DNA of 45,302 nucleotides from Clostridia bacterium (GTDB lineage: Bacteria; Bacillota; Clostridia; Oscillospirales; CAG-272), in contig JAFTPV010000006.1 in NCBI GenBank assembly GCA_017463125.1, forward strand, positions 1 to 45,302. Direction: 5' to 3'. Numbering within the stretch: the first letter of the stretch is position 1; each line of letters begins with the position of its first letter. The notes under the pieces were generated by a model, which saw only the letters and a list, made by a program, of their open reading frames with translations, was not told the DNA's origin and made no database searches. Below are positions 7,819-39,716 of the stretch, one piece after another. The translations under genes were made by a program, and so were the position numbers.

Positions 7819-8784
7819 TTATTTCTGCACAAGGTGAACTGCAAAGCCTGCAATCTCGTCCTTGAAGTATACGAACTTGGGCTTGCCGGTCTTGTCATCA
7901 TAGGTGATGGAGGACTCGTCAAATTCAAAGCCCATTCTCTTAAAGTATGCTATAGCTCTGTCAACGAAGTGAGTCTTGATACCGATGTGGCCGCACTTGC
8001 CGGGGCCCTTGCCCATCATAAACTCGAAGGCATCGCCTGCAAAGTAGGACTTTGAGGTTTCCTTAACGGGCATACCGAAGAGAAGCTGGAAGATCTTTGC
8101 GGACTTTTCAGCCTCATCCTTGTTCTCGGTGTTGATACCCATGTGGGTGAACTCGAGGCCGAGCATTTTCTTAACCGCATCCTTGGTAAGAGCGGTGATC
8201 TCGTCCCACTTCTTCTCCTTAACAAGCTCGTCCTTTACCATAAATGAGCCGCCGCAAGCAACTATCTTGTTAAACTTGAGGTACTCGAGAAGGTTGTCAG
8301 CATTGATACCGCCTGTGGGCATGAAGGTGAGCTGACCGTAAGGAGCCGCCATAGCCTTAAGCATCTTAAGACCGCCTGCTGCTTCAGCAGGGAAGAACTT
8401 AACAGTCTTGAGACCAAGCTCGAGAGCCGCCTCAATGTCAGAGGGGTTAGAGCAGCCGGGAAGCATGGGAACACCCTTGGACAGACAGTAAGATGTAACC
8501 TTGGGGTTAAGACCGGGGGAAACTATAAACTTGGAGCCTGCTGCGATAGCCGCGTCAACCTGCTCTGTTGTGAGAACGGTGCCTGCACCTACGAGCATCT
8601 CGGGATATGCCTCTGTGATATTCTTGATAGCCTCGGCAGCACATGCGGTTCTGAAGGTGATTTCCGCAGCGGGAAGACCGCCGTCGATAAGCGCCTTTGC
8701 AAGAGGTACTGCATCATCAGGGTTCTCAATCTTAATAACGGGGATAAGACCGATGGAATAGAGTTCTTTCATCATGTCGTTCAT
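7819..8784 (-). CDS. KDPG/KHG aldolase fused to a VOC domain
   Basis: Residues 1-210 are a class I 2-keto-3-deoxy-6-phosphogluconate aldolase (Eda family), which splits KDPG into pyruvate and glyceraldehyde 3-phosphate. Glu41 in AEITFRT and the Schiff-base Lys129 in LKTVKFFPAE are present, as are GAGTVL and PTGGIN. Residues ~212-321 are an extra VOC (glyoxalase/bleomycin-resistance-like) domain beginning FTHMGINTENKDEAEKSA, with a second half GHIGIKTHFVDRAIAYF. Ordinary Eda is about 205-215 residues. The VOC role is unknown. The gene is monocistronic, with its own promoter, twin operators and terminator. KDG kinase, the preceding step, is encoded at 24682. The ribosome binding site is AAAGGAGAAAA. 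Confidence 0.92.
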   Translation of the reverse strand: MNDMMKELYSIGLIPVIKIENPDDAVPLAKALIDGGLPAAEITFRTACAAEAIKNITEAYPEMLVGAGTVLTTEQVDAAIAAGSKFIVSPGLNPKVTSYCLSKGVPMLPGCSNPSDIEAALELGLKTVKFFPAEAAGGLKMLKAMAAPYGQLTFMPTGGINADNLLEYLKFNKIVACGGSFMVKDELVKEKKWDEITALTKDAVKKMLGLEFTHMGINTENKDEAEKSAKIFQLLFGMPVKETSKSYFAGDAFEFMMGKGPGKCGHIGIKTHFVDRAIAYFKRMGFEFDESSITYDDKTGKPKFVYFKDEIAGFAVHLVQK

Positions 8785-12009: not shown

Positions 12010-12038
12010 TTGCATTTTTTGATTTTATATGCTAGAAT
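12010..12038 (+). promoter_or_regulatory. Promoter of the coiled-coil protein gene
   Basis: TTGCAT (12010-12015), a 17-bp spacer and TAGAAT (12033-12038). It is divergent from the promoter at 11871-11899. Confidence 0.6.
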
Positions 12039-12085
12039 ATATCTGTAAAGTTATATATAGGCAAAAAAATGGAGGCAAAGCTCGA

Positions 12086-14233
12086 ATGATAATAGACCTT
12101 GTTCATAACTATATTGTGAAAAACACGATTACCGATTCCTTCGTCGAGAGTGTTGAAAAAAATCTTCTGCCCGCCCTTTCCGAAAAATACGGCGCCGGAC
12201 TCTCGGGAATACAGATGTATGAGGATTATATTGCCGATGCCTTTTATCAGAGAGGCGACTGGTACTATCCTCTTACCGTTATGACCCTTGACGGTCCCGT
12301 TACGCAGTGGGTAAAATGGAAGATGAAGGCGGGTAATTTTAAGGACGGTGTTCCTTATGCTTACGTTGGAGCCGGTCTTCTTGATATTACAATTGCCGAT
12401 GATGTTCCCGAGGAATTTTCTGCAAAGCTTGTGGGCAGATCCAGATATTACGAGGGCGGCGCTATCAGCGTCAATGTTGATACAACGGTCAATGATCCTA
12501 CTCTTCTTGTAGGCAAGTATTCGCAGACCTTCGTTGACGAGATGGCACGTCAGCTTACCGTTAAAATAGAGGAGGCAATGTCCGTTAATGGTATCGCATC
12601 GAGCACCCTTTCCCTGACTCTTCTCTTCGCCCCTGCTACATATATGGAACACACCTCCGAGAACGTAACATATCGTCGTCTTCTTATATCAGACAAGGCC
12701 TCCGCACCACGCGATTTTTGGGTAAAATGGTTCCGTGAGGACGGCGCCACCGCTTACACCGTTTCTGATAACGTAAGCTGTGAGAATATCACGTTTGATA
12801 TAGGTGAGGACGCCTCCCAGAAGATCAGAGAAAAGGAATATCGCTTCCTTGTAAGTGCGGGCGGTGACAAGTACCATAACGCAATGGGAAGAAAGAATAT
12901 CACAGAGTGGCGCGAGCTGGTTAAGCGCGCCGTTAAGCGCGGAGAGCTTGAAAAGATAGAGCTTGCACCCGAGGTTGCAGAGAACGATGATATAAATAAG
13001 CGCCTTCTTGAGCTTCTGGGTAAAGCACCCGAGGTGGCAAGCGAGCCCGCTCCCGTAAAAGAGGAGAACGATGAGTTTGCGCGTGCTATGCAGTATGCAA
13101 GAGATATTGTGGCAGAGCGTGAGAGTGCCGAGGAGGAAGCGCCGGAGGCTACTGAGATTTCGTTTGAGCCGAAGAATGCGGTTGAATCGCTCTTCAATCT
13201 TGTCGAAGAAGAAAGTGCAGCATGCGTGCCTGTTATAGAAGAGGTCGAGGATGGCGCACAAGAGCCGGAAACCGTAGAGGAGGAAGCTCCGATACCCGCT
13301 CCTGCAATGATTATCGAGGACGTTGATTATGCATCGGCGTCGGATGCGGAATTTGAGGATATTATTGATGAGGAAGCTCTTGAGGAAGAGCCCGAGTCAG
13401 CACCTGTTCCCACAGTCGAGAGGATAGAGGCAGCAGCCCCTGTCGCTGAGAATCTTGAAGCAAAGCTGCGCGCAGAGATAGAGGCAAAGCTCCGTGCCGA
13501 ATACGAGGCAGAGGCAAAAGCAAAGGCTGAGGCAGACGAAGCACGCCTTCGCAAAATGGAAGAGGATCTTCGCAGGAAAAACGCCGAGATGCTTGCTGCC
13601 GCAGAGGCTGAGAACCAAAGGCTCAGAAAGCTTGAGGAAGCCCGCCGTGCCGAAGAGGAAAAGCTTCGCAACCAGCTTGAGCAGCAGCTTCTTATGGAAG
13701 CCAGAGAGCGCGAGCGCATGGCAGAGGCTGCAAGAATTGCTCTGGCAGAGCAGAAAAAAGCAGAGGCAGAGGCAGCCGCGAGAGCAAAGGCCAAGGAGGA
13801 CGAGGAAAAGAGAGCGGCCTTCGAGCGTCAGAGAGCCGAGGAGGTAGCCCGCGTTGAAGCAGAGCGCAAGGCAGAGGCAGAAAGACTTCGCCGCGAGGCA
13901 GATGAGCGCGCAAAGGAATCAAAGGCAGCAGCGGCTATATCTGCAAACATAAAGAGCAAAAATTACACCTATACCTCAAAGAGCGTGCGTCTGCTCTTCC
14001 GACGTAGCGTTGACCCTAACATCACTTCCCGTATATACGAGATAATCAAGACTACTCTCGAGTACTACGGTAAGGATAAGATGTATATGCGTATAAAGGC
14101 GACTATTCCCGACACCACGACTGTGATACTTGAGTTTGTGGAAATACCGATGGAAGAAATGGCTCTCCTCTCTAACATCATCAAGGTGCTTGGAAACAGC
14201 GGTCTTGGTATTGCTAAAGCCATCGTGGAATAA
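12086..14233 (+). CDS. Large protein with long charged coiled coil, unknown
   Basis: I do not recognise this 715-residue protein. Residues 1-300 form a compact mixed domain (MIIDLVHNYIVKNTITDSF..., with repeated aromatic WYYP, WVKWKMK and FWVKWF elements). Residues 300-455 are an acidic, Pro/Glu/Ala-rich linker. Residues 455-620 are an Ala/Glu/Lys/Arg heptad-type coiled coil with many EAxLRxE repeats. Residues 625-715 form a small alpha/beta C-terminal domain. There is no signal peptide or membrane segment. I start at ATG 12086 because GGAGG lies 11 nt upstream; the 19-residue upstream extension lacks a site. The gene is monocistronic. A cytosolic scaffold or filament-like role is a guess from shape only. 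Confidence 0.75.
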   Translation: MIIDLVHNYIVKNTITDSFVESVEKNLLPALSEKYGAGLSGIQMYEDYIADAFYQRGDWYYPLTVMTLDGPVTQWVKWKMKAGNFKDGVPYAYVGAGLLDITIADDVPEEFSAKLVGRSRYYEGGAISVNVDTTVNDPTLLVGKYSQTFVDEMARQLTVKIEEAMSVNGIASSTLSLTLLFAPATYMEHTSENVTYRRLLISDKASAPRDFWVKWFREDGATAYTVSDNVSCENITFDIGEDASQKIREKEYRFLVSAGGDKYHNAMGRKNITEWRELVKRAVKRGELEKIELAPEVAENDDINKRLLELLGKAPEVASEPAPVKEENDEFARAMQYARDIVAERESAEEEAPEATEISFEPKNAVESLFNLVEEESAACVPVIEEVEDGAQEPETVEEEAPIPAPAMIIEDVDYASASDAEFEDIIDEEALEEEPESAPVPTVERIEAAAPVAENLEAKLRAEIEAKLRAEYEAEAKAKAEADEARLRKMEEDLRRKNAEMLAAAEAENQRLRKLEEARRAEEEKLRNQLEQQLLMEARERERMAEAARIALAEQKKAEAEAAARAKAKEDEEKRAAFERQRAEEVARVEAERKAEAERLRREADERAKESKAAAAISANIKSKNYTYTSKSVRLLFRRSVDPNITSRIYEIIKTTLEYYGKDKMYMRIKATIPDTTTVILEFVEIPMEEMALLSNIIKVLGNSGLGIAKAIVE

Positions 14234-14522: not shown

Positions 14523-16679
14523 ATGAAAAAATATATACAGACGGTACTGATTTTACTTTTTATGACCATATCTTTTGTGTCATGCGATTTTATTACCGTC
14601 GACAATAGCGGTGCCCAAAATGGAGCGGGCAATCAATCGCAAGAAGATAATACTGACAGCGGTGACGAAATAGTTGACGGCGACTTTATATGGAGCGCGG
14701 GCTCGGAGATCAGCGTTGTGAGCTCTGAAGCCGAGCTTGCCGATAATGATAATTCATCAAAGTATGCACGCTCCGTCAGCAATATTTACAGTATGATAGG
14801 TTCGTTTGCGGTATCGGAAAGTATAAAGCTTAATTTTGTCCCGGACTCCAAGGAGGCGACGAAGCACGAGATCGTTCTCGGCAGGTCGAGCCGCGAGGTT
14901 TCAAAGCGTGCCTACGAGCTGCTTGACGATCAAGTGACCGAGGGTGACGAGGTTGGTTGGCTTATATATTCCGACGGATACTCGGTTGCCATAGCCTTCG
15001 ATTATGATATTGAGTATTTGGCACTGGACGAGGCACTGGCGTATTTTAAGGATAATCTTGTGGGTAAATCGCTTACTCTTGATGAGGGAGTTTGTGCAAA
15101 AAGATTGATTTCTATAAACGAGGTTCACCAGAAACGAGATGATGAGCTTGTGGCATCAAGGTGGGAGGCGCTTAAAAAGAAGATATACACCGAGATGCGT
15201 GAAACTATGAGCGATAGTGATGCCGGAAAATATACCGAGGATATGATCTCCGCCCTAGAGCAAATATACGCTCTTTACAGCGATGACCTTATCGACTGGT
15301 TTGCAGGCCTTTACGAGCCTTACATTTGCGTTTGCGAGGGTGATACCTGTCAGAAAACGCGTTACTGCGGAGGCTCGGGCTTCTATTACTCCAATTCCGC
15401 GAGGGATAACGCCTACGTGACCTATAGCGGAGGCGAATATATGCTTTTGCCCGACGCTGAAACGACGGCGCAGGCTCTTGGATTTATTGCCTCCTGCGGA
15501 ATGCTTAATCAGATAGGCAGCGATTTGAAAAACGCCTTTCCGGAGGGAGAAGGCGAGAGAATGATAAGGTTCATTAAGGCTCTTCAGGACGAGAAATCCG
15601 GATATTTTTATCATCCGCAGTGGCTCTCTCTTATAGACACCGATCATTTTTGGGACTCAAGAAGGTCGAGGGATATGAACTATTCTCTTTCGGTGCTTCG
15701 ATTCTTCGGTTCGGCTCCTACGTACACTACTCCCACGAACGTTCCGGGTGACGGAATACTCTACGACGGCACCGACCTTAACGTTGGCGCCACAGCCGAC
15801 CGTCTCGTATCTCCTCTTAAAACCTCACTTGTAACAGCGGTTTCAAAAGTCATTCTTGCAAGCTCCGAGCCTGCTGTGCATCCGCATCTCGTGTCAGAGA
15901 AAACCTTCACCGATTATCTTGCAACGCTCGATTTGGAAGGTAATTCCTATTATGTAGGAAACGAGCTGGCATCTCTCGCGCCTCAAATAGTAGCCAGAGA
16001 TAAGACTCTTGGTACGGAAGACAATCCCCGACCGCTTGCTACGATACTTGACAGCTGGTTCAGATATTATCAGGATACTGAAACGGGGCATTGGCATAAG
16101 AATAACGATGCCGGATACCGAGGATATTACGCTATAAACGGACTCTTGAAGATCTCCGCATGCTACAACACTCTGATGCTCGAGTTTCCGAATCCTCTTG
16201 CGGCGACGCGCTCCGCCTTTGCTATTATAGCCAGCGAGGAGCCGATAAATCACGTTTGCGACCTCTATAACACGTGGTTCACTATAAGCAACATAATTTC
16301 CAATATCAACGCTTACTCCGACGATAAAGCACTTGCAAAGCAGATAGTTTCGGAGGTTCGGGTTGATGCTATCCCTGCGGTCATCGCAACGGCAGAAAAG
16401 ATGAAGGGACATCTGAAGGATGACGGCTCCTTCTCGTATTTTGCAAACAAATCCTCGGCCACATCTCAGAATATGCCCGTCGCAATACCGAACACCAACG
16501 AGGGTGACGTGAACGCTACCAACATCTTTACTTACGGTATTCTCGGCTATCTCTTCAGCGCTCTTGATTTTGGCTCGGCGCTTGACGTCTATACCGATTG
16601 CGACAGAGAAAGATTCATAGAATTGATAGAGGTAAAAATAGCAAATTGTGATAAACGGCAAGCGGAAGTTGCCGATTAA
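14523..16679 (+). CDS. Paralog 1: lipoprotein with probable alpha/alpha-toroid domain
   Basis: This is a 718-residue exported lipoprotein: a signal peptide with SFVSC lipobox (Cys21), then a Ser/Asp/Asn-rich spacer. Residues ~60-195 resemble the small alpha/beta domain that precedes catalytic domains in some exported glycosidase-like proteins (HEIVLGRSSREVSKRAYELL...YSDGYSVAIAFD). Residues ~200-705 are the shared family domain. It is helical, with signatures FYYSNSARDN, LLPDAETTAQ, LQDEKSGYFYHPQW, HVCDLYNTWF and GSFSYF. The Q-x-x-G-x-aromatic and DGSF elements recall alpha/alpha-toroid folds. The family is not one I recognise. Paralog 2 follows after 15 bp. Ribosome binding site AAAGGGGATAG. 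Confidence 0.8.
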   Translation: MKKYIQTVLILLFMTISFVSCDFITVDNSGAQNGAGNQSQEDNTDSGDEIVDGDFIWSAGSEISVVSSEAELADNDNSSKYARSVSNIYSMIGSFAVSESIKLNFVPDSKEATKHEIVLGRSSREVSKRAYELLDDQVTEGDEVGWLIYSDGYSVAIAFDYDIEYLALDEALAYFKDNLVGKSLTLDEGVCAKRLISINEVHQKRDDELVASRWEALKKKIYTEMRETMSDSDAGKYTEDMISALEQIYALYSDDLIDWFAGLYEPYICVCEGDTCQKTRYCGGSGFYYSNSARDNAYVTYSGGEYMLLPDAETTAQALGFIASCGMLNQIGSDLKNAFPEGEGERMIRFIKALQDEKSGYFYHPQWLSLIDTDHFWDSRRSRDMNYSLSVLRFFGSAPTYTTPTNVPGDGILYDGTDLNVGATADRLVSPLKTSLVTAVSKVILASSEPAVHPHLVSEKTFTDYLATLDLEGNSYYVGNELASLAPQIVARDKTLGTEDNPRPLATILDSWFRYYQDTETGHWHKNNDAGYRGYYAINGLLKISACYNTLMLEFPNPLAATRSAFAIIASEEPINHVCDLYNTWFTISNIISNINAYSDDKALAKQIVSEVRVDAIPAVIATAEKMKGHLKDDGSFSYFANKSSATSQNMPVAIPNTNEGDVNATNIFTYGILGYLFSALDFGSALDVYTDCDRERFIELIEVKIANCDKRQAEVAD

Positions 16680-16694
16680 GAAAGGATACATAAT

Positions 16695-18167
16695 ATGAAA
16701 GAAACAAAGTGGGAGGCGTTGAGGTCAAAAATCCAAGTCGATATGACCAAAGCTCTCGATGAGAAAAGGGCACTCGAGTATACCGACGAGATGATACGTG
16801 CGCTTCGTGAATTCTACTCGATTTACGACGGGGGTCTTGTTGATTGGTTCGCCGGTCTTTACGAACCAAGCATACGCTTTGACTCCGAGGATAAGGCTAT
16901 GGTCGAAAGATATTCCGGAGGCGCAGGCTTCTATTACTCCAATTCCGCGCGTGACAATTACAGCGTTGAGAGGGACGGAGATACCTATCAGCTTCTCCCC
17001 GATGCCGAAACCACGTCACAGGTATTTGGCTTTCTTAGCCGCTCGGGTATGCTCGATGAGGTTAATGGCGATGTCAGAGCGGCGTTCCCCGATGGCGAGC
17101 CGGAAAGGATAGTCAGATTCCTTAAGGCTTTGCAAGATGAGAAAACAGGATATTTCTATCATCCGCAGTGGATGTCTATGATTGGCACCCCGAAGTATTG
17201 GGACTCAAGACAATCAAGAGATCTCACTTATGCGACATCCGCGCTGTCAAAGCTTGGCGCACGTCCAACATATTCTACTCCCAACGGCAAGGAGGGTGAC
17301 GGAATTAGGTATGACGGTGTAAAGGTTGATATTTCCCGTGAAGCTGACGCCACTGCTGACACCGGAAGCAAAAGAACCTCGGGATACGTCCACCCGAGGC
17401 TTGAGAGCCCCGAAGTATTTGCCGAGTATCTTAAATCTCTGAATCTTGCGGGAAATTCGTACTTTGTAGGCAACGAGCTTACAGCCCTGTCAGGACAGAT
17501 ACTTCACAGAGATAAACAGCTTGCAACGGAAGACAATCCCCGCCCGCTTGCCACGATGCTCATAAATTGGCTTAACGAAAATCAGATAGCAGAGAAGGGC
17601 TATTGGCACGACGACGTAAAAAATCCTCCGTCAAGCCCATATTACGCTACAAACGGTCTTCTTAAAATAGCAACGCTATACAATAATCTCAAGATGCCTT
17701 TCCCCAACCCCCTTCCTGCCGCGCGCTCGGCGTTTAACGTTATAACCTCGGATGTGCCGATAAATCACGTTTGCGACCTTTATAACACTTGGTTTATCGT
17801 CGTTATGATGGCTATAAATCTCAGAGAGTATTCAGGAAATCCGACCCTTGCGGACGAAATAATAGCAGGCATACGCCTTGAAGCAATCCCCGCCGTTTAT
17901 GCAACGGCTAAAAAGATGAGAGCGCACAGAAAGGTCGACGGTTCCTTCTCTTATTTTGCAAACCGCTCCTCCTTCACGTCCCAAAATGCACCCGTAGCAA
18001 TAAAGGATACAAACGAGGGTGACGTGAACGCAACTGTTATTTTTACGTACGGAATTTTAGGCTTTATGTTCGAGGCTCTTGATTTCGGTGAGCCTATACC
18101 GATATGCGACGACGGCGACCGCATAAAATTCAAAAAGCTGATAGAGAAAAAAATCAAAAATCAATAA
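16695..18167 (+). CDS. Paralog 2: family domain only, no export signal
   Basis: The 490 residues cover only the shared domain, beginning KETKWEALRSKIQVDMTKAL where paralog 1 has its family domain. It keeps GGAGFYYSNSARDN, LLPDAETTSQ, LQDEKTGYFYHPQW, INHVCDLYNTWF, DGSFSYF and DTNEGDVNAT. There is no signal peptide, lipobox or N-terminal alpha/beta domain, so it is apparently cytosolic. The start follows AAAGGATACA, 15 bp after paralog 1; the two form one transcript ending at the hairpin at 18179. DNA identity to paralog 1 is locally very high around the FYYSNSAR codons. No function is assignable. Confidence 0.8.
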   Translation: MKETKWEALRSKIQVDMTKALDEKRALEYTDEMIRALREFYSIYDGGLVDWFAGLYEPSIRFDSEDKAMVERYSGGAGFYYSNSARDNYSVERDGDTYQLLPDAETTSQVFGFLSRSGMLDEVNGDVRAAFPDGEPERIVRFLKALQDEKTGYFYHPQWMSMIGTPKYWDSRQSRDLTYATSALSKLGARPTYSTPNGKEGDGIRYDGVKVDISREADATADTGSKRTSGYVHPRLESPEVFAEYLKSLNLAGNSYFVGNELTALSGQILHRDKQLATEDNPRPLATMLINWLNENQIAEKGYWHDDVKNPPSSPYYATNGLLKIATLYNNLKMPFPNPLPAARSAFNVITSDVPINHVCDLYNTWFIVVMMAINLREYSGNPTLADEIIAGIRLEAIPAVYATAKKMRAHRKVDGSFSYFANRSSFTSQNAPVAIKDTNEGDVNATVIFTYGILGFMFEALDFGEPIPICDDGDRIKFKKLIEKKIKNQ

Positions 18168-18178
18168 CGAAAAATGGG

Positions 18179-18225
18179 AAAACCGCAAGTTTTGTAAGTC
18201 ATAGTTTGCAAAACTTGTGGTTTTT
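18179..18225 (+). terminator. Terminator between paralogs 2 and 3
   Basis: AAAACCGCAAGTTTTG (18179-18194) pairs along 16 bp with CAAAACTTGTGGTTTT (18209-18224), then T residues. The remaining spacer to 18382 is AT-rich without other features I can support. Confidence 0.85.
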
Positions 18226-18382
18226 GCGTTGAGATTTATAAAATTCAGCTTCAAAATCCCGCAAAATCAAAACTGCGGTAAAAATATTTGCGGAAAAATA
18301 TTTTGCCCCCGCTTTGTGCAAAAGAGATAAAAAGCACCAAATATTTTGTAAATTTTGTCAGTATGTAAAAGTTTTTTGTTTG

Positions 18383-18391
18383 TGCTAGAAT
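18383..18391 (+). promoter_or_regulatory. Extended -10 promoter of paralog 3
   Basis: TGCTAGAAT (TG-n-TAGAAT) lies about 50 bp before the leader ORF and resembles the region upstream of paralog 1. A -35 element is not clear. Confidence 0.4.
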
Positions 18392-18437
18392 TATTATACA
18401 CATAAATATATGAGTAATGAAAGGATACAAATTATTT

Positions 18438-18482
18438 ATGCGAGCTCATGTTAGTAAAAAAGGTCTTAAGGAGGTAATTTAA
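18438..18482 (+). CDS. Possible 14-codon leader peptide before paralog 3
   Basis: The sequence ATG...TAA encodes MRAHVSKKGLKEVI. GAAAGGA lies upstream at about 12 nt, and the stop overlaps the start of paralog 3 as TAATG. The strong TTAAGGAGG site for paralog 3 lies inside this ORF. It would permit coupled translation. It may equally be chance; the codon content gives no independent support. Confidence 0.3.
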   Translation: MRAHVSKKGLKEVI

Positions 18483-21400
18483 TGAAAATGAGCAAAAGAA
18501 TATTCGGCTTAATCCTAGCCGTTATAATGCTGATCGGCGCTCTGGCATCATGCGCGCCGTCGGACGAAAGCGGAGATGGAGGGGAGAACATAAGCGGTGA
18601 TTACATATATAAGAGCGGATCATCGCTGAACGTTGTATGCTCGCAGTACGAGCTTGACCGAGCCGATACCAAGGTTAAATATAATAGCATTACAAATCAG
18701 CTTTTCAGCAGCATCGGCGGCAATTCCGCCATCTCGGTCAAAAAAACCGCTGATACATCGGTGATAGCAGAGCACGAGTTGGTGATAGGCGTTTCTGAAC
18801 GCGAAATCTCCAAGATAGCCTATGAGCAGCTTGCTAAAATTAGCCTTGACGAATATGAATCTGCGTTTTTAGTCTACTCTGACGGCAAGTCGGTCGCTAT
18901 AGCCTATAATGAGGATGAAGACTACGTAACTCCCGAGAAGGCGATTGATTATTTCGTTTCCAATTATATTGACGGAAGAAAATATCTGACGCTTGACGCC
19001 GGAGTGGTTACTGCTCAAAAAATCAAGCTTAACGAGTATTACCAAGAGCGCGACGATGCTATGGTCGAAGCGCAGTGGGACTCTGTTTTGAAAAAGGTAA
19101 CGTCGGAGATGGAGCCAACTCTCGGTGAAGAGGGGGCTGAGGAGTATGCCAAGGAGCTGGTGGCTGCATTGCGTAAATTCTACTCAATGTATAGCGACAA
19201 GCTTATATCCTGGCTTGCAAACCTTCTTGACCCGCGCATTTGCGTATGCGAGGGTGACGTTTGCCAGAATACGAGATATTGCGGCGGTGCAGCCTTTTAT
19301 TATTCAAATAGTGCGAGAAATACGAAGGGCTTCCTTCCCGATGCAGAGTCGACAGCACAGGCGCTCGGTATTCTTAAAAATTCCGGAATGCTGAGGCTTG
19401 TAAATAACGATTATGCAGCGGCATTCACCGAGGAGCTTCCCGCAAGATTTATCAGATTTGCTAAGGCACTTCAGGACGAGGAGTCGGGATATTTCTATCA
19501 TCCCCAGTGGAACAAGGAGGAGCTTTCGGTCGCAAGACTCTCCCGAGATATGAACTACGCGACGAGCGTGCTTAAGTATTTCGGCTCCCTTCCAACATAC
19601 AAAACTCCTAACGGTGATGACTATGACGGTATAACCTACGACGGAAAAGATCTTAATAATGAAGTAGCGCCGACCGCCTCTCTGCTCACGACAAGGCTCA
19701 GCACCTCCCGCGTGTCTATGGTTTCCAAGGTGGTTGCTACGGCCGGCGAGGCAGCATATCCTGCCAGAATGGAAAACGACATTGAGTGGAAAAAGCATCT
19801 TGCGACGCTTGATTTAAGAAATAATTCCTACTCTGTCGGAAACAGCCTTGCCGCATCGGCAAAGCAGCTTGTGACAAGACAGGAGCAGCTTGATAAGCAG
19901 GGCGTATCATACAACCTTATTGATATAACGGTAGACTGGTTTAAGGCAAATCAGAATAAGCAGACAGGAACGTGGTATTTCGTTAATCCCGAGAGTCCTT
20001 CCTACGATCCATATTACGGCAACGACGGCGTTCTTAAGATCTCCGCGTGGTTTAATGACGTTGGAAGACTGTTCCCGAATGCTTCTCTTGCAGCGCAAAA
20101 CGCTATCGACGCTATAATGTCAGACCAGGATATAGCCCACGTATGTAATCTCTATAACACCTGGTTCACTATTTCAAACCTTAAGAGTAACGTCAGAAAT
20201 TACGGTACGGCGTCCGATGCGGATAAGTTTATCGCAGACCTTCGCGCCGTAGCGCCCGAGGGAGTTCTCAAATCCCTTGAGAAGATAGCCGACCATCAGA
20301 AGCCTGACGGCTCCTTCTCCTATTATCAGGACCACTGCTCGCAGACGTCGCAGGGTATGCCCGTTGCTCTTGCCGATACAAACGAGGGCGACCTCAACGC
20401 TACGAGCATAGCGACCTATGGTATAACGGGCTTTATGTTCTCGGCGCTTGACATCGGAAGCTCTGTTGATATATACACCGATTCTGACAGAATGGCCTTT
20501 CTTGCCGAGGTAAGACTTCTTGATTCAGTAATAAAGGATGAGGAGATAAACAACGCCGAGCCGAATACGTTTGATCAGTACACGGTAGGCACGACCCCTG
20601 ACACAAGTGATGTGGGACGTAATATAGGCAATAAAGAGGTCAGCAGCATTACTGTTGTAGAAGATCCTCGCGAGAAGGCGGAAGGAAACATTTTGTCCTT
20701 CGCATCGGGTAAGGGTAGTTATGACTATGTTTCGTTTATGTCTAAAACCGGACTTGGAGGCTCAACCTACGTCTTTGACGCCGATATGTGCGTTTCGCAC
20801 TCGGATACGACAGGATATATAGTTCAGATAAACTTTGGTACGGGAACTGCACAGGGCAACATTTATATGGTTACCCTTCGTATAAGAGAGGTAGACGGTA
20901 AATGGGTTGTCGGAATATACGACTCCTCCTCAACCGACGATAACCGTTCTGTAAACAAGCATCTCGCCGACGTTCCTTATCAGGAATGGTTCAATCTCAA
21001 GATTGAATATTACAGGATAAACACGGAAACCAGCGAGGACATGCGCGCCAAGATATTCGTCAACGACGAGTGCGTAGCTGTAACTAATAACTATTTCGAT
21101 TTCCAGGGCAATAAGATCACCGGTGAGAGTAAGCCGAGCGTTACGTATAACCGAGTTTGGATAAATACTATGTCTACCCGTGAAACAACGCTTCTTCTGG
21201 ATAATGTTGCGGTATATAAGGACAGGCGCGCGTACATTGCCGAAAAGCTTCCTATTGAAAGCAACGTGGACGGAGTAGGAAACGAGCAAAAGACGTACGA
21301 TTTCGAGTCATCTCCCTCACTTCCAGAGGGCTTCATAGCAAGCGAGGACGGCGGTGCGTATCTTGCTTCCGTTATTGAAAACAATATCTCGAACAATAAG

Positions 21401-23251
21401 ATAATCGTAAACGGCGGCACGATACTTATGCCGAGCAATATACGCTCACCGAGGGCTAATCGCGGAAGCCTTAATATGAATATAACGGTGAATGCTGAAA
21501 AGACCGGGGACTGCGGTTCCATAGCCTTCGTTGATACGGAAACCGGTGAGAATATCATATTCAGACTGGATATGAAGGTTATTGACGTTGACGGTGTGAA
21601 ATACGTCGAGCTTTATGAGTGTCCCGCAGGAACAACGGCAGGTGCCATTGAGAATGCGCGCTTCAAGCTGGGTGAGGAGGTTAATCTGAGGATCGACTTC
21701 TATCACAAGGAGGACGTAGCTCTAATTTATATAGGCGGTACGTTTGTAAATGCGTGCGAGGCTATATTTAACAATGCAAGTAGGCTTTCCTATAGCGCAG
21801 CTATGTTAACTATGAATAATAAATCGGTAGCTATGATAGATAACGTTACGACCGATTTCGATTCCTTCGATTTCACCGAGGCTGAAGGTGTCAAGGCCGA
21901 TGGAAATCCCAATACTGACAGCTTCACAGGCGGCGTAACCGGTGCAGTTATCGGCGGTAATGCAGAAGGCTATGACGATGCGGGCGATGGAGTTATCAAG
22001 CTATCCAAGAAGAACGATTTCGTTAAGCTCATCGCCTCCGACCGTTCTGCCATAGCAGGCGCTTCTATCTTGGAGGTCGATATCGAAATCAAGGATGCGT
22101 CTTATATTGGCAATATCTTAAGAGCCGCTGTTACCGACAAGGACGGAAACGCTATTTTCGCTATAGCACTCGTAGCTACCAAGGACGGTATAAATATTCA
22201 CGAGATTTGCTCCGGTGATAAGATCTACCCCTTCGTTCTTTCAACTATTGATTGGTATAACAGAAGCTTCACTCTCAGAATTGAGTATTACGAGAAAAAT
22301 CAATCTGCGAATATCTACGTAAGCGGTACGGGTGTTGCTACGACGGCTGTTACCTATGACGTAAACAGCGCAGCGCGCGAGGTTGCATACTCCGAGATAA
22401 AGATGCTCGGTGATTGTGAGATATACGTTGATAATATGCTTTCCGACAAGATCTTTCTTTCGCAGACGGTTATTGCCGACAACAGCGGATCAAACGTTGA
22501 GGACTCTATTACGGAAAAAATGACTCTTGATTACTCCGTAAACGGAAATATTCCGAAGGCTATCACTGGCTCCTACACTACCTTTGGCGCAGGCGTATCA
22601 ATACAGCAGATGCTTAAGGTTATCGGCGACTATCAAGAGTATTCCAAGGTAGGTAAGTTCGTGACCAGCTCCGGCGGAAATGACAGCCTTATTATAAAAT
22701 CCAATAATACCTCCACCGAGCTTAACAATGCCGAAATGATGGTATTTGAGGCAGAGCTTTGTCTGGATCCTTCAACTACAGGCACGATATATCAGGTAAT
22801 CTTCGGTGACAGCACCAAGGGCCTGGTTACTGATGCCGCGTATATGTTCTGCATAAACGTAAGCTCCGGACGCGTACAGATTTACGACGCATCGTGTACT
22901 AGCGGCTCGAATTGGCGCAAGGGTGAAACCTTGAGCATAGCTGACGTTGGCGAGTGGTTCAAGCTCCGCATAGAGTATTATAAGGGCGACGGAACAGAGG
23001 ACGGCGTCAGAATAAAGACCTTTGTAAACGATGAGCTTCTCTACGTAAGTGACAACTATTTCAGAGATTATACAAAGGCCACAACCCCTAAAACCTATTT
23101 CAACATAGTACGCTTCTATTCGCAGGGCAGCTCTGTTGCCGACCTTTACTTTGACAACGTAGCGCTCTACGTTTCCGAGGGTACGTGTAACGATGAGCCT
23201 ACTCTGAAGTACACTTACGGAAGCGCGGTACCCGAAGAGAACAAACGGTAA
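18482..23251 (+). CDS. Paralog 3: giant lipoprotein with four jelly-roll-like repeats
   Basis: This is a 1589-residue lipoprotein: signal peptide with LASC lipobox (Cys24), small alpha/beta domain (~40-185, HELVIGVSEREISKIAYEQL), then the family domain (~190-680, with FYYSNSARN, LLPDAEST-like FLPDAESTAQ, LQDEESGYFYHPQW, HVCNLYNTWFTISN, DGSFSYYQ). Four tandem units follow at about 696-914, 938-1124, 1144-1321 and 1345-1564. Each has an LRIEYY-type strand, then a VNDE/IYVSG strand, and ends near DNVAVY; this is the look of concanavalin/LamG-like beta-sandwiches. Units 1 and 4 are closest. These repeats probably bind carbohydrate at the cell surface, but that is inference. Strong AAGGAGG site. 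Confidence 0.82.
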   Translation: MKMSKRIFGLILAVIMLIGALASCAPSDESGDGGENISGDYIYKSGSSLNVVCSQYELDRADTKVKYNSITNQLFSSIGGNSAISVKKTADTSVIAEHELVIGVSEREISKIAYEQLAKISLDEYESAFLVYSDGKSVAIAYNEDEDYVTPEKAIDYFVSNYIDGRKYLTLDAGVVTAQKIKLNEYYQERDDAMVEAQWDSVLKKVTSEMEPTLGEEGAEEYAKELVAALRKFYSMYSDKLISWLANLLDPRICVCEGDVCQNTRYCGGAAFYYSNSARNTKGFLPDAESTAQALGILKNSGMLRLVNNDYAAAFTEELPARFIRFAKALQDEESGYFYHPQWNKEELSVARLSRDMNYATSVLKYFGSLPTYKTPNGDDYDGITYDGKDLNNEVAPTASLLTTRLSTSRVSMVSKVVATAGEAAYPARMENDIEWKKHLATLDLRNNSYSVGNSLAASAKQLVTRQEQLDKQGVSYNLIDITVDWFKANQNKQTGTWYFVNPESPSYDPYYGNDGVLKISAWFNDVGRLFPNASLAAQNAIDAIMSDQDIAHVCNLYNTWFTISNLKSNVRNYGTASDADKFIADLRAVAPEGVLKSLEKIADHQKPDGSFSYYQDHCSQTSQGMPVALADTNEGDLNATSIATYGITGFMFSALDIGSSVDIYTDSDRMAFLAEVRLLDSVIKDEEINNAEPNTFDQYTVGTTPDTSDVGRNIGNKEVSSITVVEDPREKAEGNILSFASGKGSYDYVSFMSKTGLGGSTYVFDADMCVSHSDTTGYIVQINFGTGTAQGNIYMVTLRIREVDGKWVVGIYDSSSTDDNRSVNKHLADVPYQEWFNLKIEYYRINTETSEDMRAKIFVNDECVAVTNNYFDFQGNKITGESKPSVTYNRVWINTMSTRETTLLLDNVAVYKDRRAYIAEKLPIESNVDGVGNEQKTYDFESSPSLPEGFIASEDGGAYLASVIENNISNNKIIVNGGTILMPSNIRSPRANRGSLNMNITVNAEKTGDCGSIAFVDTETGENIIFRLDMKVIDVDGVKYVELYECPAGTTAGAIENARFKLGEEVNLRIDFYHKEDVALIYIGGTFVNACEAIFNNASRLSYSAAMLTMNNKSVAMIDNVTTDFDSFDFTEAEGVKADGNPNTDSFTGGVTGAVIGGNAEGYDDAGDGVIKLSKKNDFVKLIASDRSAIAGASILEVDIEIKDASYIGNILRAAVTDKDGNAIFAIALVATKDGINIHEICSGDKIYPFVLSTIDWYNRSFTLRIEYYEKNQSANIYVSGTGVATTAVTYDVNSAAREVAYSEIKMLGDCEIYVDNMLSDKIFLSQTVIADNSGSNVEDSITEKMTLDYSVNGNIPKAITGSYTTFGAGVSIQQMLKVIGDYQEYSKVGKFVTSSGGNDSLIIKSNNTSTELNNAEMMVFEAELCLDPSTTGTIYQVIFGDSTKGLVTDAAYMFCINVSSGRVQIYDASCTSGSNWRKGETLSIADVGEWFKLRIEYYKGDGTEDGVRIKTFVNDELLYVSDNYFRDYTKATTPKTYFNIVRFYSQGSSVADLYFDNVALYVSEGTCNDEPTLKYTYGSAVPEENKR

Positions 23252-23260
23252 AAAAACAAT

Positions 23261-23289
23261 GGAGCCTTCCGAAAAAGGCGGGAGGCTCC
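23261..23289 (+). other. Intercistronic hairpin between paralogs 3 and 4
   Basis: GGAGCCTTCC (23261-23270) pairs with GGGAGGCTCC (23280-23289) around a 9-nt loop. No T-tract follows, so it is more likely an mRNA stabiliser or partial attenuator than a terminator. Confidence 0.6.
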
Positions 23290-23308
23290 GCGACTCAAAG
23301 GAATCAAT

Positions 23309-24604
23309 ATGAAAAATTATAATAAAATCCGCGAGGATATGCGTGCGCCTAAGTGGGCGGCTATGGCAGAATATGTCGGCGGCGAGGACGGAAAAAAACT
23401 CGTTGACGCAATGCAAGACTTTTACTCCATATATACCGATGACGTTATAGATTGGTATGCGGGGCTTTACGACGTTAATATCGGCGGCTGGTACTATTCC
23501 GCTTCGGCAAGAGATAACGAAAGAAGCGTCTATATGGACAAGGAGATAATTCTCCTGCCTGACGCTGAGTCCACCTGTCAGGCTCTCGGCTTCTGGTCGG
23601 GAAGCGGTATGGCGGCAAGAGGCAATGATGAATATAAAAACGTAATTCCCGCTTGGATGCGTGACGATATTGTAAAATTCATCACCTCATTGCAGGATGA
23701 GGACGGATATTTTTATCACAAGCAGTGGGGCAAGAGTATTCCGCCTGCAAGACGCGGCAGAGATTACATGTGGTGTATGTCAATGCTTAAGACTATGGGT
23801 GCAGAGCCGAAGTACGCAAGTCTTGCCGACTGCGAAGACAATGCCGACAAGAGCGAGATTTTGATACCCGATTATCTTAAGGATAAATCCTCCTTCTTAA
23901 GCTATGCAGAAAATCTTTTCGCTACAAGGTCAACGTGGTCGGCAGGCAATGAGCTTGCAGCGCAGGTAACTTTGATTAAGGCGTCGGGTCTTATCGACAC
24001 AGCGGTCGATTTCCTCAATTCCAAGCAGCTTGCCGAGAACGGATGCTGGGAGGAGGGCGTAGGATACGCGGCGGTAAACGGTCTGCTAAAAATATCCTGC
24101 GTTTACAATAACGCGGGGCGTGCTTTGCCGTACGCTATGGAAGGCGCGAGAGCAGCCATCGGCTGCATAGTTGCAGAAGAAGATATAAAGTGCGTATGTG
24201 ACCTCTATAACACTTGGTACACGATAACCAATATAACGAATAATTTGAGAAAATACGGTGGCTCTGACGGAGAGCGCAAGGCGGAAGAGATTCTTCGTGA
24301 CATAAGGCATATTGCACCTTATGCAATACAGAGAACGAAGGAAAAAATCGCCCCGCACAAAAAGGAGTCCGGCTCCTTCTCGTATTATAAAAATTCCCCG
24401 TGTCCTACATCACAGAGCATGCCTGTTGCCGTTCCTTACTTATGGGAGGGTGACGGAAACGCAACAAATATCGCAATCGTCGGCACAACCAATTTTGTTA
24501 CTTCGGCCTTGGGTCTTGGGGCGTATAAGGTACCCTTGTTCAGCACGGATGACGGCGAGAGATACCTATCTCTTCTTGAAGAAAAAAAGAACAATGCTAA
24601 ATAA
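23309..24604 (+). CDS. Paralog 4: shortest family member, no export signal
   Basis: This 431-residue protein is again the family domain alone. It is the most diverged copy: WYYSASARDNE, LLPDAESTCQ, LQDEDGYFYHKQW, RDYMWCMSMLKTMG, AVNGLLKISCVYN, CVCDLYNTWYTITN, SGSFSYYK and EGDGNATNIA. It lacks the insert between the RDMNY-type and GNELA motifs that lengthens the other three. There is no signal peptide. It starts after AAAGGA, downstream of the intercistronic hairpin, and closes the cluster with a terminator. The conserved Arg-Asp, Asp-Ala-Glu and His/Asn-Thr-Trp positions are candidates for a shared active or binding site. Confidence 0.8.
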   Translation: MKNYNKIREDMRAPKWAAMAEYVGGEDGKKLVDAMQDFYSIYTDDVIDWYAGLYDVNIGGWYYSASARDNERSVYMDKEIILLPDAESTCQALGFWSGSGMAARGNDEYKNVIPAWMRDDIVKFITSLQDEDGYFYHKQWGKSIPPARRGRDYMWCMSMLKTMGAEPKYASLADCEDNADKSEILIPDYLKDKSSFLSYAENLFATRSTWSAGNELAAQVTLIKASGLIDTAVDFLNSKQLAENGCWEEGVGYAAVNGLLKISCVYNNAGRALPYAMEGARAAIGCIVAEEDIKCVCDLYNTWYTITNITNNLRKYGGSDGERKAEEILRDIRHIAPYAIQRTKEKIAPHKKESGSFSYYKNSPCPTSQSMPVAVPYLWEGDGNATNIAIVGTTNFVTSALGLGAYKVPLFSTDDGERYLSLLEEKKNNAK

Positions 24605-24610
24605 AAAAGA

Positions 24611-24643
24611 AAGCGCATCCTCAAAAAAGAGGATGCGCTTTTG
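24611..24643. terminator. Bidirectional terminator between paralog 4 and KDG kinase
   Basis: AAGCGCATCCTC (24611-24622) pairs with GAGGATGCGCTT (24629-24640). There are T-runs on both strands, so it can serve both convergent genes. Confidence 0.85.
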
Positions 24644-24681: not shown

Positions 24682-25719
24682 TTATCTTACCATTTCGTTT
24701 TTTGGACCTTGCGTTGTGTGATTTTTAATTATTCTTTCGATATCAATAATGTCGCACTCGGTGGTGTCACCAATGACCGTGTTTTTAAGTGCCGCCATAG
24801 CGTCACCGTACTCTGCCATTTTTCTTATATCACCGTATTCAAGAAGAGCGTAGAGCGCACCCGCAACGTACGCATCACCCGAGCCTATTCTGTCAACGAC
24901 GTCAATATCTCTGTATGGCTCCTCTTCAAAATGCACGTCCTCGGCGCAGTCGTATACGAGGGAAGAGAAGGTGTGCTTTTTAGGTGAGGTGACGAGTCTT
25001 TTTGTGCTGGCTATTATCTCAAGATTTTTATATTTTTCGGCAAATTTCTTGTGTATTTCGTAAAGCGTACCAGTCATTCCGAACATACGTCGTGAGGTTT
25101 CCTCGGATATGAAAAGAATATCAATAAGCGGCAAAATTTGGCTTATAGTTTCCCTCGCGGTATCCTCGTCCCAGAGTGCAGCTCTGTAATTCACATCGAA
25201 TGAAATAAGCGCCCCTTTTTCCTTAAACAGCTTCATCATTTCTATAACGTTCTCGCGCACCGATTCCGAGAGTGCCAGAGTTATGCCGCTGGTATGGAAT
25301 ATGTTTGCCGAGGTATAGACCCTCTCGGGCAGCTCTTCCTTTTTGAAGGAGGTAAAAGAGGAGTTCTTTCTGTCGTAAGATACGACGGACATTCGGGGGT
25401 AAGCCCCGCTTTCGTAATAGTATATACCAAGGCGCATATCAGGGGATTCGTCGTAAATGATATAGTCATCGCTGCTTCCGGCGTAACGCACCTGACGTCT
25501 TGCGAACTTGCCTATCTCATTGTGCGGCAGCTTGGTTATCATACCTGTTCTTTTACCTAGCATAGAAATGCCCGAAACGACGTTGAGCTCCGAGCCTCCC
25601 GCTTTTTTCTCAAAGGTTTCGCAGAAGGAAATCCGCTCATTCCCCAGAGGTGACAGACGCAGCATTACCTCGCCTATTCCGAGCACGGAAAAATCTCTTT
25701 TTGATACAGCCTTAATCAT
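24682..25719 (-). CDS. kdgK: 2-keto-3-deoxygluconate kinase (PfkB family)
   Basis: This 345-residue sugar kinase should phosphorylate 2-keto-3-deoxygluconate to KDPG, the substrate of the aldolase at 7819. It shows N-terminal GIGEVMLRLSP, KAGGSELNV, the KdgK-like FDVNYRAALW (174-183) and the PfkB signature DRIGSGDAY (276-284) with catalytic Asp282. KDG rather than ribose or fructose specificity is inferred from these motifs. I start at 25719, after GGGAGGG; 24 in-frame upstream residues lack a ribosome binding site. It has its own consensus promoter and converges on the paralog cluster. Confidence 0.85.
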   Translation of the reverse strand: MIKAVSKRDFSVLGIGEVMLRLSPLGNERISFCETFEKKAGGSELNVVSGISMLGKRTGMITKLPHNEIGKFARRQVRYAGSSDDYIIYDESPDMRLGIYYYESGAYPRMSVVSYDRKNSSFTSFKKEELPERVYTSANIFHTSGITLALSESVRENVIEMMKLFKEKGALISFDVNYRAALWDEDTARETISQILPLIDILFISEETSRRMFGMTGTLYEIHKKFAEKYKNLEIIASTKRLVTSPKKHTFSSLVYDCAEDVHFEEEPYRDIDVVDRIGSGDAYVAGALYALLEYGDIRKMAEYGDAMAALKNTVIGDTTECDIIDIERIIKNHTTQGPKNEMVR

Positions 25720-25752
25720 AGCGCCCTCCCGAAAAATTATTTTTATAACTCT

Positions 25753-25781
25753 ATTATACTCTATATTCGCCCAAATGTCAA
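25753..25781 (-). promoter_or_regulatory. Consensus promoter of KDG kinase
   Basis: The minus strand has TTGACA (25776-25781), a 17-bp spacer and TATAAT (25753-25758). Confidence 0.85.
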
Positions 25782-25874
25782 TTGCCCGCAAAGGATTGGA
25801 TGGCGTAAAATATTGCTAAAAAATTACCGAATTTTTACTAAATAACCTTAAAATGAAAAAATCCTCTTGCATTA

Positions 25875-31157: not shown

Positions 31158-31188
31158 AAGGCATACAAAAAGAAAGGATACATAAAAA

Positions 31189-32001
31189 ATGAAAAAGAAC
31201 ATTCTCGAAGCACCGTTTGTCAAGGAAATGTGCGAGGCTACCGCAAATATGTACCGTCTTGGTTGGGACGAGAGAAACGGCGGTAACATCAGTTATCTTC
31301 TTGAAACAGAGGAGGTCGGCGAGTATCTTGATTTAGACAAGGTGATCCGCACTATTCCCACCGGGTTTGACGCATCGGCTCTTATCGGCAAAATATTTAT
31401 TGTAACCGGTACAGGCAAGTATTTTAAGAACGTTGAAAAGGACCCCGAATATAACCTTGGTATCGTCCGTATTGCAAAGGATGGCACTACCGCAGAGCTT
31501 CTTTGGGGCTGGTCCGACGGCGGTAAGTTTACATCCGAGTTCCCCGCGCACATGATGAGCCATATATCCAGACTTTCGGTTGACCCAGACCACAGAATAG
31601 TAATGCACTCCCACCCTACATACACTATCGCGATGAATGCTGTTTGCCCCATTGATGAAAAGGACTTTACCCACAGACTTTGGCAGTCAAACACCGAGGC
31701 TGTTGTCGTATTCCCCGACGGCGTAGGCGTGCTTCCTTGCATGGTTTGCGGCACTAACGAGATAGGTATCGCAACTGCGGAGAAGATGAAGAGCTTCAGA
31801 CTCGTTGTTTGGACCAATCACGGCATCTACGGCACCGGAAAGAATATGGACGAGGCGTTTGGTCTTATCGAAACGGTTGAAAAGACCGCGCAGATATATA
31901 TGCTCGCCCTTGGACACACCGTGAACGTGATTCCCGATAAGATTATAAAGGAGCTTGCAGCTCTTTGGAATCTTACTCCCCTTGAAGGAATTCTTGAATA
32001 A
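31189..32001 (+). CDS. rhaD: Rhamnulose-1-phosphate aldolase
   Basis: This 270-residue zinc class II aldolase cleaves L-rhamnulose 1-phosphate to dihydroxyacetone phosphate and L-lactaldehyde. GWDERNGGNISYLL (25-38) binds phosphate. Catalytic Glu117 is in FTSEFPAH. The zinc ligands are His140 and His142 in MHSHPT and His211 in TNHG, spaced as in the E. coli enzyme. The site AAAGGATACA precedes the start. It completes a two-gene rha operon and ends in a terminator. Confidence 0.94.
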   Translation: MKKNILEAPFVKEMCEATANMYRLGWDERNGGNISYLLETEEVGEYLDLDKVIRTIPTGFDASALIGKIFIVTGTGKYFKNVEKDPEYNLGIVRIAKDGTTAELLWGWSDGGKFTSEFPAHMMSHISRLSVDPDHRIVMHSHPTYTIAMNAVCPIDEKDFTHRLWQSNTEAVVVFPDGVGVLPCMVCGTNEIGIATAEKMKSFRLVVWTNHGIYGTGKNMDEAFGLIETVEKTAQIYMLALGHTVNVIPDKIIKELAALWNLTPLEGILE

Positions 32002-37787: not shown

Positions 37788-37803
37788 TTTTTCGGAGGAC
37801 GCT

Positions 37804-39707: not shown

Positions 39708-39716
39708 GGTAAAAAT

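Follow-up and report, generated by a model that had tools for sequence, protein, structure and literature searches.

Four adjacent open reading frames, all on the + strand at positions 14523-24604 of the 45,302-nucleotide stretch of DNA analysed here (the window), share one domain of ~430 residues. A profile of this domain aligns to all four proteins (positions 2 to at least 428 of 433; 471-513 bits), and P1, P2 and P3 show 37-38% identity with P4. The common domain and the strict motif signatures described in an earlier note on this DNA are both borne out, the motifs with small variants (WYYSASAR in copy 4 for FYYSNSAR, and CNLYNTW in copy 3 for CDLYNTW).

P1 (14523..16679, + strand, 718 aa) and P3 (18482..23251, + strand, 1589 aa) are predicted exported lipoprotein forms (L). 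Both bear a hydrophobic signal, a lipobox cysteine (residue 21 in P1 and 24 in P3) and then an alpha/beta-looking domain of ~170 aa, as the earlier note had proposed for two of the copies. P2 (16695..18167, + strand, 490 aa), which starts 15 bp after P1, and P4 (23309..24604, + strand, 431 aa), which starts 57 bp after P3, are predicted cytosolic forms (C) that lack both the signal and the N-terminal domain, P4 being the minimal version of the shared, putatively toroid domain. In P1 the N-terminal domain (14610..15125, + strand, by alignment), which is alignable in 29 L proteins and belongs to no family, is followed by the shared domain (15126..16646, + strand, by profile match). In P3 the shared domain (19040..20530, + strand, by profile match) is followed by four concanavalin-A/laminin-G-like repeats of the jelly-roll type (20528..23215, + strand; residues 683-928, 926-1141, 1127-1329 and 1332-1578, by profile), which are the four sandwich repeats noticed earlier; a profile search for this repeat in P1 found none. 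The cluster is made up of two L-C pairs (P1+P2 and P3+P4), and P1 and P2 are mutual closest relatives: the nearest relative of P2 in the tree is P1 (58% identity, support 100/100).

A terminator-like hairpin with a 13-bp stem (24610..24641, - strand; a consensus match only) lies in the gap between P4 and a convergent PfkB kinase gene (24682..25791, - strand), whose best NCBIfam matches, an aldolase/sugar-kinase fusion and KDG kinase, are both below the cut-off. The window also bears a KHG/KDPG aldolase gene (7819..8784, - strand), the sole one found in its own genome (92% complete). The pair of KDG kinase and KDPG aldolase is a weak argument, because KDPG aldolase is found in all seven genomes tested, including a congener that lacks the family and in which a kinase of the same type adjoins it.

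Similarity of the shared domain to known folds

The four window proteins all stay below the Pfam and NCBIfam cut-offs, nine more family members and partners reach none in NCBIfam, and neither P4 alone nor the family profile finds a PDB relative by sequence. This agrees with the earlier note, which could name no family. Searches of a phage collection with P4 and of viral contigs with A2 returned no relative, and literature searches aimed at the family gave no paper on it among the results listed. A2 and the tree were built without L053 (a contig-edge fragment) and L043_19044 (slice-cut, and the same gene as L044_2044).

Below these thresholds, the commonest Pfam match among 61 members is the prenyltransferase toroid PF00432 (8 members at E<=1, best E 6.5e-5), followed by DUF5550 (3 members); the Pfam gathering cut-off for PF00432 was not reached, and there is no match at E<=1e-5 in the window's own genome. 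In a profile alignment, four of six PF00432 targets outscore all 150 unrelated proteins (the other two rank 13 and 90 of 160), and a second profile places four of seven above all 150 negatives; of the three misses, two were wrong, short frames. With a broader 17-row profile against the PDB, 7 of the 11 sequences at E<=10 are of protein geranylgeranyltransferase beta or squalene-hopene cyclase, both toroid enzyme families (best E 0.038, no single match being significant alone); PDB searches with one protein or with the narrower 61-row profile returned no toroid protein. Moreover, a distant homologue weakly matches PF13243 (E 0.0066). Because these weak, sub-threshold matches converge, an alpha/alpha toroid, the fold suggested earlier, is supported as the predicted fold, the closest kind being that of terpenoid cyclases and prenyltransferases. 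The family shares with these toroids (PF00432 and PF13243) a Q-x-x-x-G-aromatic turn repeat followed by a D/E-containing stretch, in register, but it differs from them in being exported and lying in glycan loci, and the window proteins have no PF00432 match at E<=1. Toroids of the PF00432 class carry zinc ligands or a DxDD catalytic motif.

The likeness to lyase and hydrolase toroids proposed earlier is supported as regards the toroid but not for the particular enzymes compared. The catalytic domain of PL10 (PF09492, one sequence) ranks 18 of 163 targets, among the negatives, and two full-length GH88/GH105 targets (PF07470) rank 7 and 37 of 163, the best negative ranking 5; two additional targets in this comparison were wrong short frames. 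GH88 and GH105 are toroid enzymes of uronate pathways; they are encoded here by separate genes, show no profile similarity above background and have no Pfam match in the window proteins.

The alpha/alpha-toroid lyases include PL5, PL8, PL12, PL15, PL17, PL21, PL23, PL35, PL38 and PL39, and the barrels of PL5 and PL38 span residues 23-329 and 24-402 (PMC12088678). Toroid lyases such as PL35 use residues of the kinds Tyr, Asn, Arg and His (PMC12088678). The family would resemble them in its expected fold, in barrel length (PL5 and PL38) and perhaps in the invariant Tyr, Asn and Arg and near-invariant His of cassette members. The toroid lyase families gave no match in PDB profile searches to E 10 or in Pfam for the four window proteins, and none is among the matches listed for the 61 members (25 of 32 Pfam families).

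Copy number and paired cassettes

The window's own genome (1.9 Mb) has 31 members of the family, the congener G383 has 36, and another congener has none. In G383, 24 of the 36 were fetched, the remaining 12 being on contigs C9, C22, C30, C43, C44 and C52, with one of those on C33. The tandem amplification of the earlier note is in fact an expansion of a multi-gene cassette across the whole genome. Together with a third, secreted protein (S), the family takes up 6.2% of its own genome, and this ~6% of 1.9 Mb is devoted to proteins that are nameless in the libraries searched.

Among the loci fetched, 25 blocks contain both L and C, and 23 of these also contain S. The intergenic gaps in the 25 L-C pairs range from -4 to 84 bp, and the divergence of L parallels that of C (Mantel r 0.62, reached in 0 of 2000 permutations). 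In the tree, the L/C label switches 9 times, compared with 21 in shuffles, and L and C are sisters at four loci (P1+P2 of the window, L036, L049 and L025). By this tree, some L-C pairs arose one from the other within a single cassette.

Jelly-roll repeats occur in 27 of 29 L proteins, one to seven in each; repeats of the P3 type in relatives weakly match Laminin_G_3, Polysacc_lyase and 3keto-disac_hyd in Pfam. A Pfam scan of the N-terminal domain in the same 29 proteins gave only single-member matches, including a weak one to NAGLU_N (E 0.035, 1 of 29); that this domain may be GH20b/GH67N-like is a tentative idea. The set of 29 is without the L protein L048_2_5167, whose sequence is truncated by its slice.

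Nine positions (in P4 numbering Y62, D85, T89, Y136, Q139, R148, D152, K261 and N301) are identical in all 58 cassette rows compared (30 L and 28 C; L051, L052, L053, L030_12777 and L043_19044 left out), H137 is kept in 57 of the 58, and D382 is near-invariant. Such a pattern suggests catalysis, and it is equally strict in the L and C forms. As sequence positions only, N301, Y62, Y136 and R148 (58/58) and H137 (57/58) make a candidate Asn/His/Tyr/Arg set.

Neighbouring genes at other loci

AraC-type regulators (HTH_18) account for 12 of 94 near genes and 2 of 86 farther ones (p 0.011). The same contrast for GH20 is not significant (p 0.21, with the far count set at its upper bound of 1). Because GH20 and GH39 together make up just 7 of the 94 near genes, most loci lack them within two genes. 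One cassette is adjoined by a GH20C gene, another has a GH4 alpha-galacturonidase gene between C and S (3fef, E 8e-143), and GH39, GH43 and GH2 genes are also near members at other loci. In G383, a GH39-like gene and then an MFS_2-type transporter gene (L043 14391-15689, E 6e-12) come after an L-C-S block; a PDB search with the transporter found nothing. The own genome has in total two SBP_bac_1 and five MFS_2 matches; in the stretches of it examined, there is no SBP_bac_1 match (both lie elsewhere), and the sole MFS_2 match touching them is a weak one 6.7 kb from a cassette (C25:53729).

A distant single copy in genome G697 follows a PL10 pectate lyase gene at a distance of 200 bp, and genes for a GH88/105 protein and a DctP binding protein are in the vicinity. 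The PL10 protein carries a related jelly-roll module, its non-catalytic part matching the jelly roll of the S family (E 7e-6). This homologue retains Y62, D85, T89, Y136, R151, K261, N301, E380, D382 and N384, but not R68, H137, Q139, R148 and D152, so that a substrate deduced from its locus may not carry over to the cassettes. With the G697 protein as a query, one distant homologue was found in a plasmid collection, and its neighbour turned out to be a second; both lie in a carbohydrate ABC-transporter operon of Microvirga. Three other queries yielded no further homologue there. GH88/105 is present in five of the seven genomes checked, and GH88 is absent from G330, which carries one family member.

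The nutrient-related role suggested earlier is supported by these neighbours, from the AraC regulators and GH20C, GH39, GH4, GH43 and GH2 to the PL10 beside the distant homologue. As in Gram-positive PULs, regulators, glycosidases and surface proteins are found in one locus, with a transporter too in one locus of G383; the cassettes differ in being built on a paired exported and cytosolic copy of one family plus S. Loci elsewhere show the clustering of a regulator and CAZymes with a surface protein that is expected of a PUL; within two genes of the window cluster there is no regulator, no CAZyme and no S gene.

Possible roles of the family

In this small gut-type bacterium the family occurs in many copies, as a rule one surface and one internal version next to genes for sugar digestion, and it is probably a means of using complex sugars that has not been described before. 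We consider it likely, with some reserve, that this is a new alpha/alpha-toroid family of glycan-active enzymes that work on one and the same glycan on both sides of the membrane. At each locus, one copy would be a surface lipoprotein, which jelly-roll domains usually keep attached or close to its glycan, and the second, cytoplasmic copy would act on imported fragments of the glycan; the rest of the cassette would consist of the secreted S protein and conventional glycosidases, in many cases with an AraC-type regulator as well. Each cassette may have become adapted to a separate glycan, and this would account for the 31-36 copies in a genome. The feature that the substrates most likely share is uronic-acid linkages, and beta-elimination is a likely chemistry, with hydrolysis as another possibility. 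More tentatively, the family may be a new lyase (or hydrolase) family with exported and cytosolic versions for most glycan loci, repeatedly remade from each other within a locus, which, amplified to more than 30 copies, would be the chief means of foraging for glycans in a small Clostridia genome with few sugar ABC binding proteins of the SBP_bac_1 type.

A narrower form, a new polysaccharide lyase family on uronate glycans, is somewhat less likely still. The genes beside the G697 copy (PL10, GH88/105 and DctP) and the alpha-galacturonidase inside a cassette argue for it, as do the Tyr, Asn, Arg and His of cassette members, residue kinds on which PL35 and other toroid lyases rely (PMC12088678). 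However, residue kinds alone are a weak argument, the GH20C, GH39, GH43 and GH2 neighbours point to other sugars too, and the invariant D85 and D152 and near-invariant D382 would suit a hydrolase as well. Its odds are further lowered by the absence of H137 and R148 from the very copy beside PL10, in the pectin locus.

It is rather doubtful that the domain is instead a glycan-binding or sensing module, by which L would capture glycans at the surface and C would bind or regulate in the cytosol as its partner, while cleavage would be left to the glycosidases encoded nearby. The lectin-like repeats of nearly all L proteins, the frequent AraC neighbours and the lack of an enzyme family recognised by sequence are consistent with such a role; yet nine positions identical in both compartments would be unusual for binders diversified to many ligands, and a cytosolic binder would be needed at nearly every locus. 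Large, multi-copy, repeat-bearing surface proteins might also be adhesins or decoys diversified by phage or immune pressure and not by nutrition, but this is improbable, since neither a cytosolic partner at most loci nor strict conservation of the core is then expected. That the family has the classical chemistry of the fold, acting on isoprenoids or in prenyl transfer with no link to sugar uptake, is hardly credible: prenyltransferases and squalene cyclases are the nearest folds, but the likeness is at the fold level only, roughly half of the family consists of exported lipoproteins, which mostly bear lectin-like repeats, and there are glycan genes nearby.

If the members are glycan-active enzymes, as we favour, dozens of unassigned glycan specificities in these lineages would have been missed by annotation. 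The paired exported and cytosolic copies would offer a built-in comparison of specialisation on polymers and on oligomers, and the repeated conversions between compartments a natural experiment in which secreted enzymes turn cytosolic and back.

The four-gene cluster and its cassettes

The window, contig C3 of its own genome (1.9 Mb, 28 contigs), carries four ORFs on the same strand, P1 (14523-16679), P2 (16695-18167), P3 (18482-23251) and P4 (23309-24604), with intergenic gaps of 15, 314 and 57 bp. The earlier note described four adjacent genes with a common domain, two of them lipoproteins and one bearing four sandwich repeats, and all three points hold: a ~430-residue domain (the toroid domain) is present in all four; P1 and P3 have a lipobox and a hydrophobic signal and P2 and P4 are signal-free; and P3 has four jelly-roll repeats, none being found in P1. 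No Pfam or NCBIfam family reached its cut-off for P1-P4, nor any NCBIfam family for nine other members or partners; P4 showed no match below E 0.6 among PDB sequences, no PDB relatives were found by sequence for P4 or the family profile, and a search of open-licence literature found nothing on the family. Judged against Pfam, NCBIfam and PDB, we rate the family as undescribed, with a glycan-utilisation locus built around it; it may also prove to be an existing CAZy family that has no Pfam model. Upstream of P1, a 734-aa protein (12029-14233) has a long charged, coiled-coil-looking region and matches nothing in Pfam or NCBIfam at E<=1.

Of the own-genome members, 16 are exported (L) and the other 15 cytosolic (C). 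A lipobox-like cysteine is present in 28 of 29 L proteins, and over the first 70 residues hydrophobicity peaks at 2.7-3.4 in L, compared with 0.3-2.0 across 32 C rows. To the L-C pair is often added a third, secreted family, S, consisting of a signal and ~270 aa, mostly followed by one or two jelly rolls. The loci examined (all 31 own-genome members, 24 of the 36 in the same-genus genome G383, and loci L024 and L025) form 32 blocks, of which 25 contain both L and C, spaced by -4 to 84 bp (25 pairs). S lies within the block in 21 of these 25 and just outside it in two more, L044 (where S is on L043, which overlaps it) and L050 (one gene away), whose S genes were tallied as separate blocks among the 32; L025 and the window cluster make up the remaining two. 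In L048 the slice truncates the lone L, and a C-sized member precedes it by 0.6 kb. Two own-genome L proteins are solitary, in blocks with neither C nor S (L034, 7552-10395; L039, 7847-10318). S-family or jelly-roll matches also lie apart from toroid members on own-genome contigs C1 (12892), C11 (52181), C23 (36303-38429) and C25 (115933-118634), so L and C are not always present where S or its jelly roll is.

Copy number, spread and evolution of the pairs

The own genome bears 31 members and G383 bears 36 (all candidates scored); the 31 and 13 S copies from the same stretches occupy 6.2% of the own genome. The family is rare elsewhere: matches were found in 4 of 98 genomes of the taxonomic family, 2 of 245 at order level, and 2 of 299 and 3 of 398 at phylum level, the own genome being included each time. 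The outlier genomes G330, G352, G192, G542 and G697 have one match each, without the L-type extension, that of G192 being interrupted by a stop and lying close to the end of a contig. Exact peptide patterns of P4 hit two named MAGs in public genomes, Oscillospiraceae SIG715 and goat-colon Clostridia RGIG2083.

Mapped onto a tree built from 62 toroid domains, the L/C label has to change 9 times, 7 of them imposed by well-supported branches, compared with 21 times when labels are shuffled, and separate L and C groups are the source of many pairs. At four loci L and C are sister domains (window P1 and P2, 100/100; L036; L049; L025), and one form was thus remade from the other within the cassette several times. 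The tree neighbour of P4 is another C gene (L030), not P3. Distances between L proteins correlate with those between their C partners (r 0.62, 0 of 2000 permutations), although just 6 of 25 L have their own partner as nearest C. Most simply read, the two members of a pair would serve one and the same glycan, each in its own compartment.

Fold and candidate active site

When 61 members were scanned singly, the commonest Pfam match among the 25 of 32 families listed was PF00432, the prenyltransferase alpha-alpha toroid (8 members, best E 6.5e-5), followed by DUF5550 (3 members, best E 0.017). In profile alignment, 4 of 6 PF00432 targets outscored 150 unrelated proteins, one miss being probably not the PF00432 frame; with distant homologues added to the profile, the count was 4 of 7, two misses being wrong short frames. 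Neither the one PL10 protein nor the two full-length GH88 proteins compared stood out from the unrelated set. Against PDB at E<=10, the widened profile matched 11 sequences, none significant singly (best E 0.038), 7 of them from the geranylgeranyltransferase beta and squalene-hopene cyclase families and an eighth being complement C4A, which has a related fold. The narrower profile gave two matches, both unrelated to toroids. By eye, conserved polar residues fall at six places ~43-80 residues apart (D85, R151/D152, G213/N214, N257/K261, N301 and E380/D382, P4 numbering), a spacing that would suit six inner helices, every one of them contributing a polar residue to a single cavity.

Among the positions tallied, Y62, D85, T89, Y136, Q139, R148, D152, K261 and N301 are identical in all 58 cassette rows (30 L, 28 C), and R68, H137, R151 and D382 have one exception each. 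Conservation is equally strict in exported and cytosolic forms, which argues for a chemistry common to L and C. Distant single copies conserve less of this set than cassette members: that of G697 retains Y62, D85, T89, Y136, R151, K261, N301, E380, D382 and N384 and lacks R68, H137, Q139, R148 and D152, and that of G542 retains few (Y136, N301 and D382).

Glycan genes around the family and a possible pathway

Among 94 genes at most two genes from a family or S gene, AraC-type HTH_18 occurs in 12, GH20 in 5, GFO/IDH in 4 and GH39 in 2; among 86 farther genes, HTH_18 occurs in 2, and GH20 is outside the 25 most frequent families, hence in at most one. Individual cassettes include a GH20C exo-hexosaminidase, GH39 with DUF4838 or GH2 with GH43, and in one a GH4 alpha-galacturonidase sits between C and S (3fef, E 8e-143). 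After the L-C-S block of L044 in G383 come a GH39-like gene and the gene for an MFS_2-type transporter (L043, 14391-15689).

Of the distant homologues, that of G697 is 363 aa long and its gene sits 200 bp downstream from the gene for a PL10 pectate lyase (E 2e-109). The same 19 kb contain a GH88/105 gene, and genes for a DctP binding protein and a histidine kinase are close by. S is present in the own genome and G383, and in five other genomes gave a single weak jelly-roll match only, to the non-catalytic part of this PL10 protein (E 7e-6). In G330 a DcuC-type transporter precedes the member. A further pair, in another phylum, comes from a Microvirga ossetica megaplasmid: two distant homologues encoded side by side and annotated as hypothetical (L073, 10653-12735) lie in an operon with LacI and a carbohydrate ABC transporter.

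Across G000 (the own genome), G383, G320, G330, G352, G697 and G192, GH88 matches number 2, 3, 0, 0, 2, 2 and 3, SBP_bac_1 matches 2, 2, 3, 1, 3, 11 and 8, and MFS_2 matches 5, 6, 0, 1, 3, 1 and 2, some of the last being pieces of one frame and that of G697 falling under the cut-off. In the same-genus G320 neither the family nor S, GH88 or MFS_2 was matched; in this one genome the joint absence of family, GH88 and MFS_2 agrees with a glycan lifestyle, and much of the apparatus may thus be gained or lost inside one genus.

In the pathway we propose, the AraC regulator, where present, would sense the sugar; S and L, by their sequences, would be exported and L lipid-anchored, with jelly rolls perhaps holding the glycan, as weak lectin-type matches hint; and the L toroid would cleave the polymer, as conservation and neighbours suggest. 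Fragments would be imported by symporters or another importer, given the MFS_2-type gene at one G383 locus and the transporters near the G697, G330 and Microvirga homologues, and C with enzymes such as GH20C or GH4, from their neighbourhood, would finish them inside, presumably in the cytosol. Uronate products might then enter a KDG route. A KDG-kinase-like PfkB adjoins the window cluster and a KDPG aldolase, the sole one found in the own genome, lies 5.7 kb upstream; these support the route weakly, because in the family-less congener, too, such an aldolase occurs next to a kinase of this type. Our guess for the cleavage slightly favours a lyase over hydrolysis, given the pectin-locus homologue, the galacturonidase cassette, the invariant Tyr, Asn and Arg and the near-invariant His; the loss of the His and one Arg from the pectin-locus copy counts against it. 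PL35 toroid lyases use Asn, His and Tyr, according to PMC12088678.

Elsewhere in the window, a 157-aa protein on the reverse strand (32115-32588) has a start resembling, by eye only, a ParB-type helix-turn-helix. Sugar catabolism is further represented in the window by an FGGY kinase adjoining a class II aldolase (29847-32001) and, at 36852-40991, by a PfkB kinase and a galactokinase-like gene.
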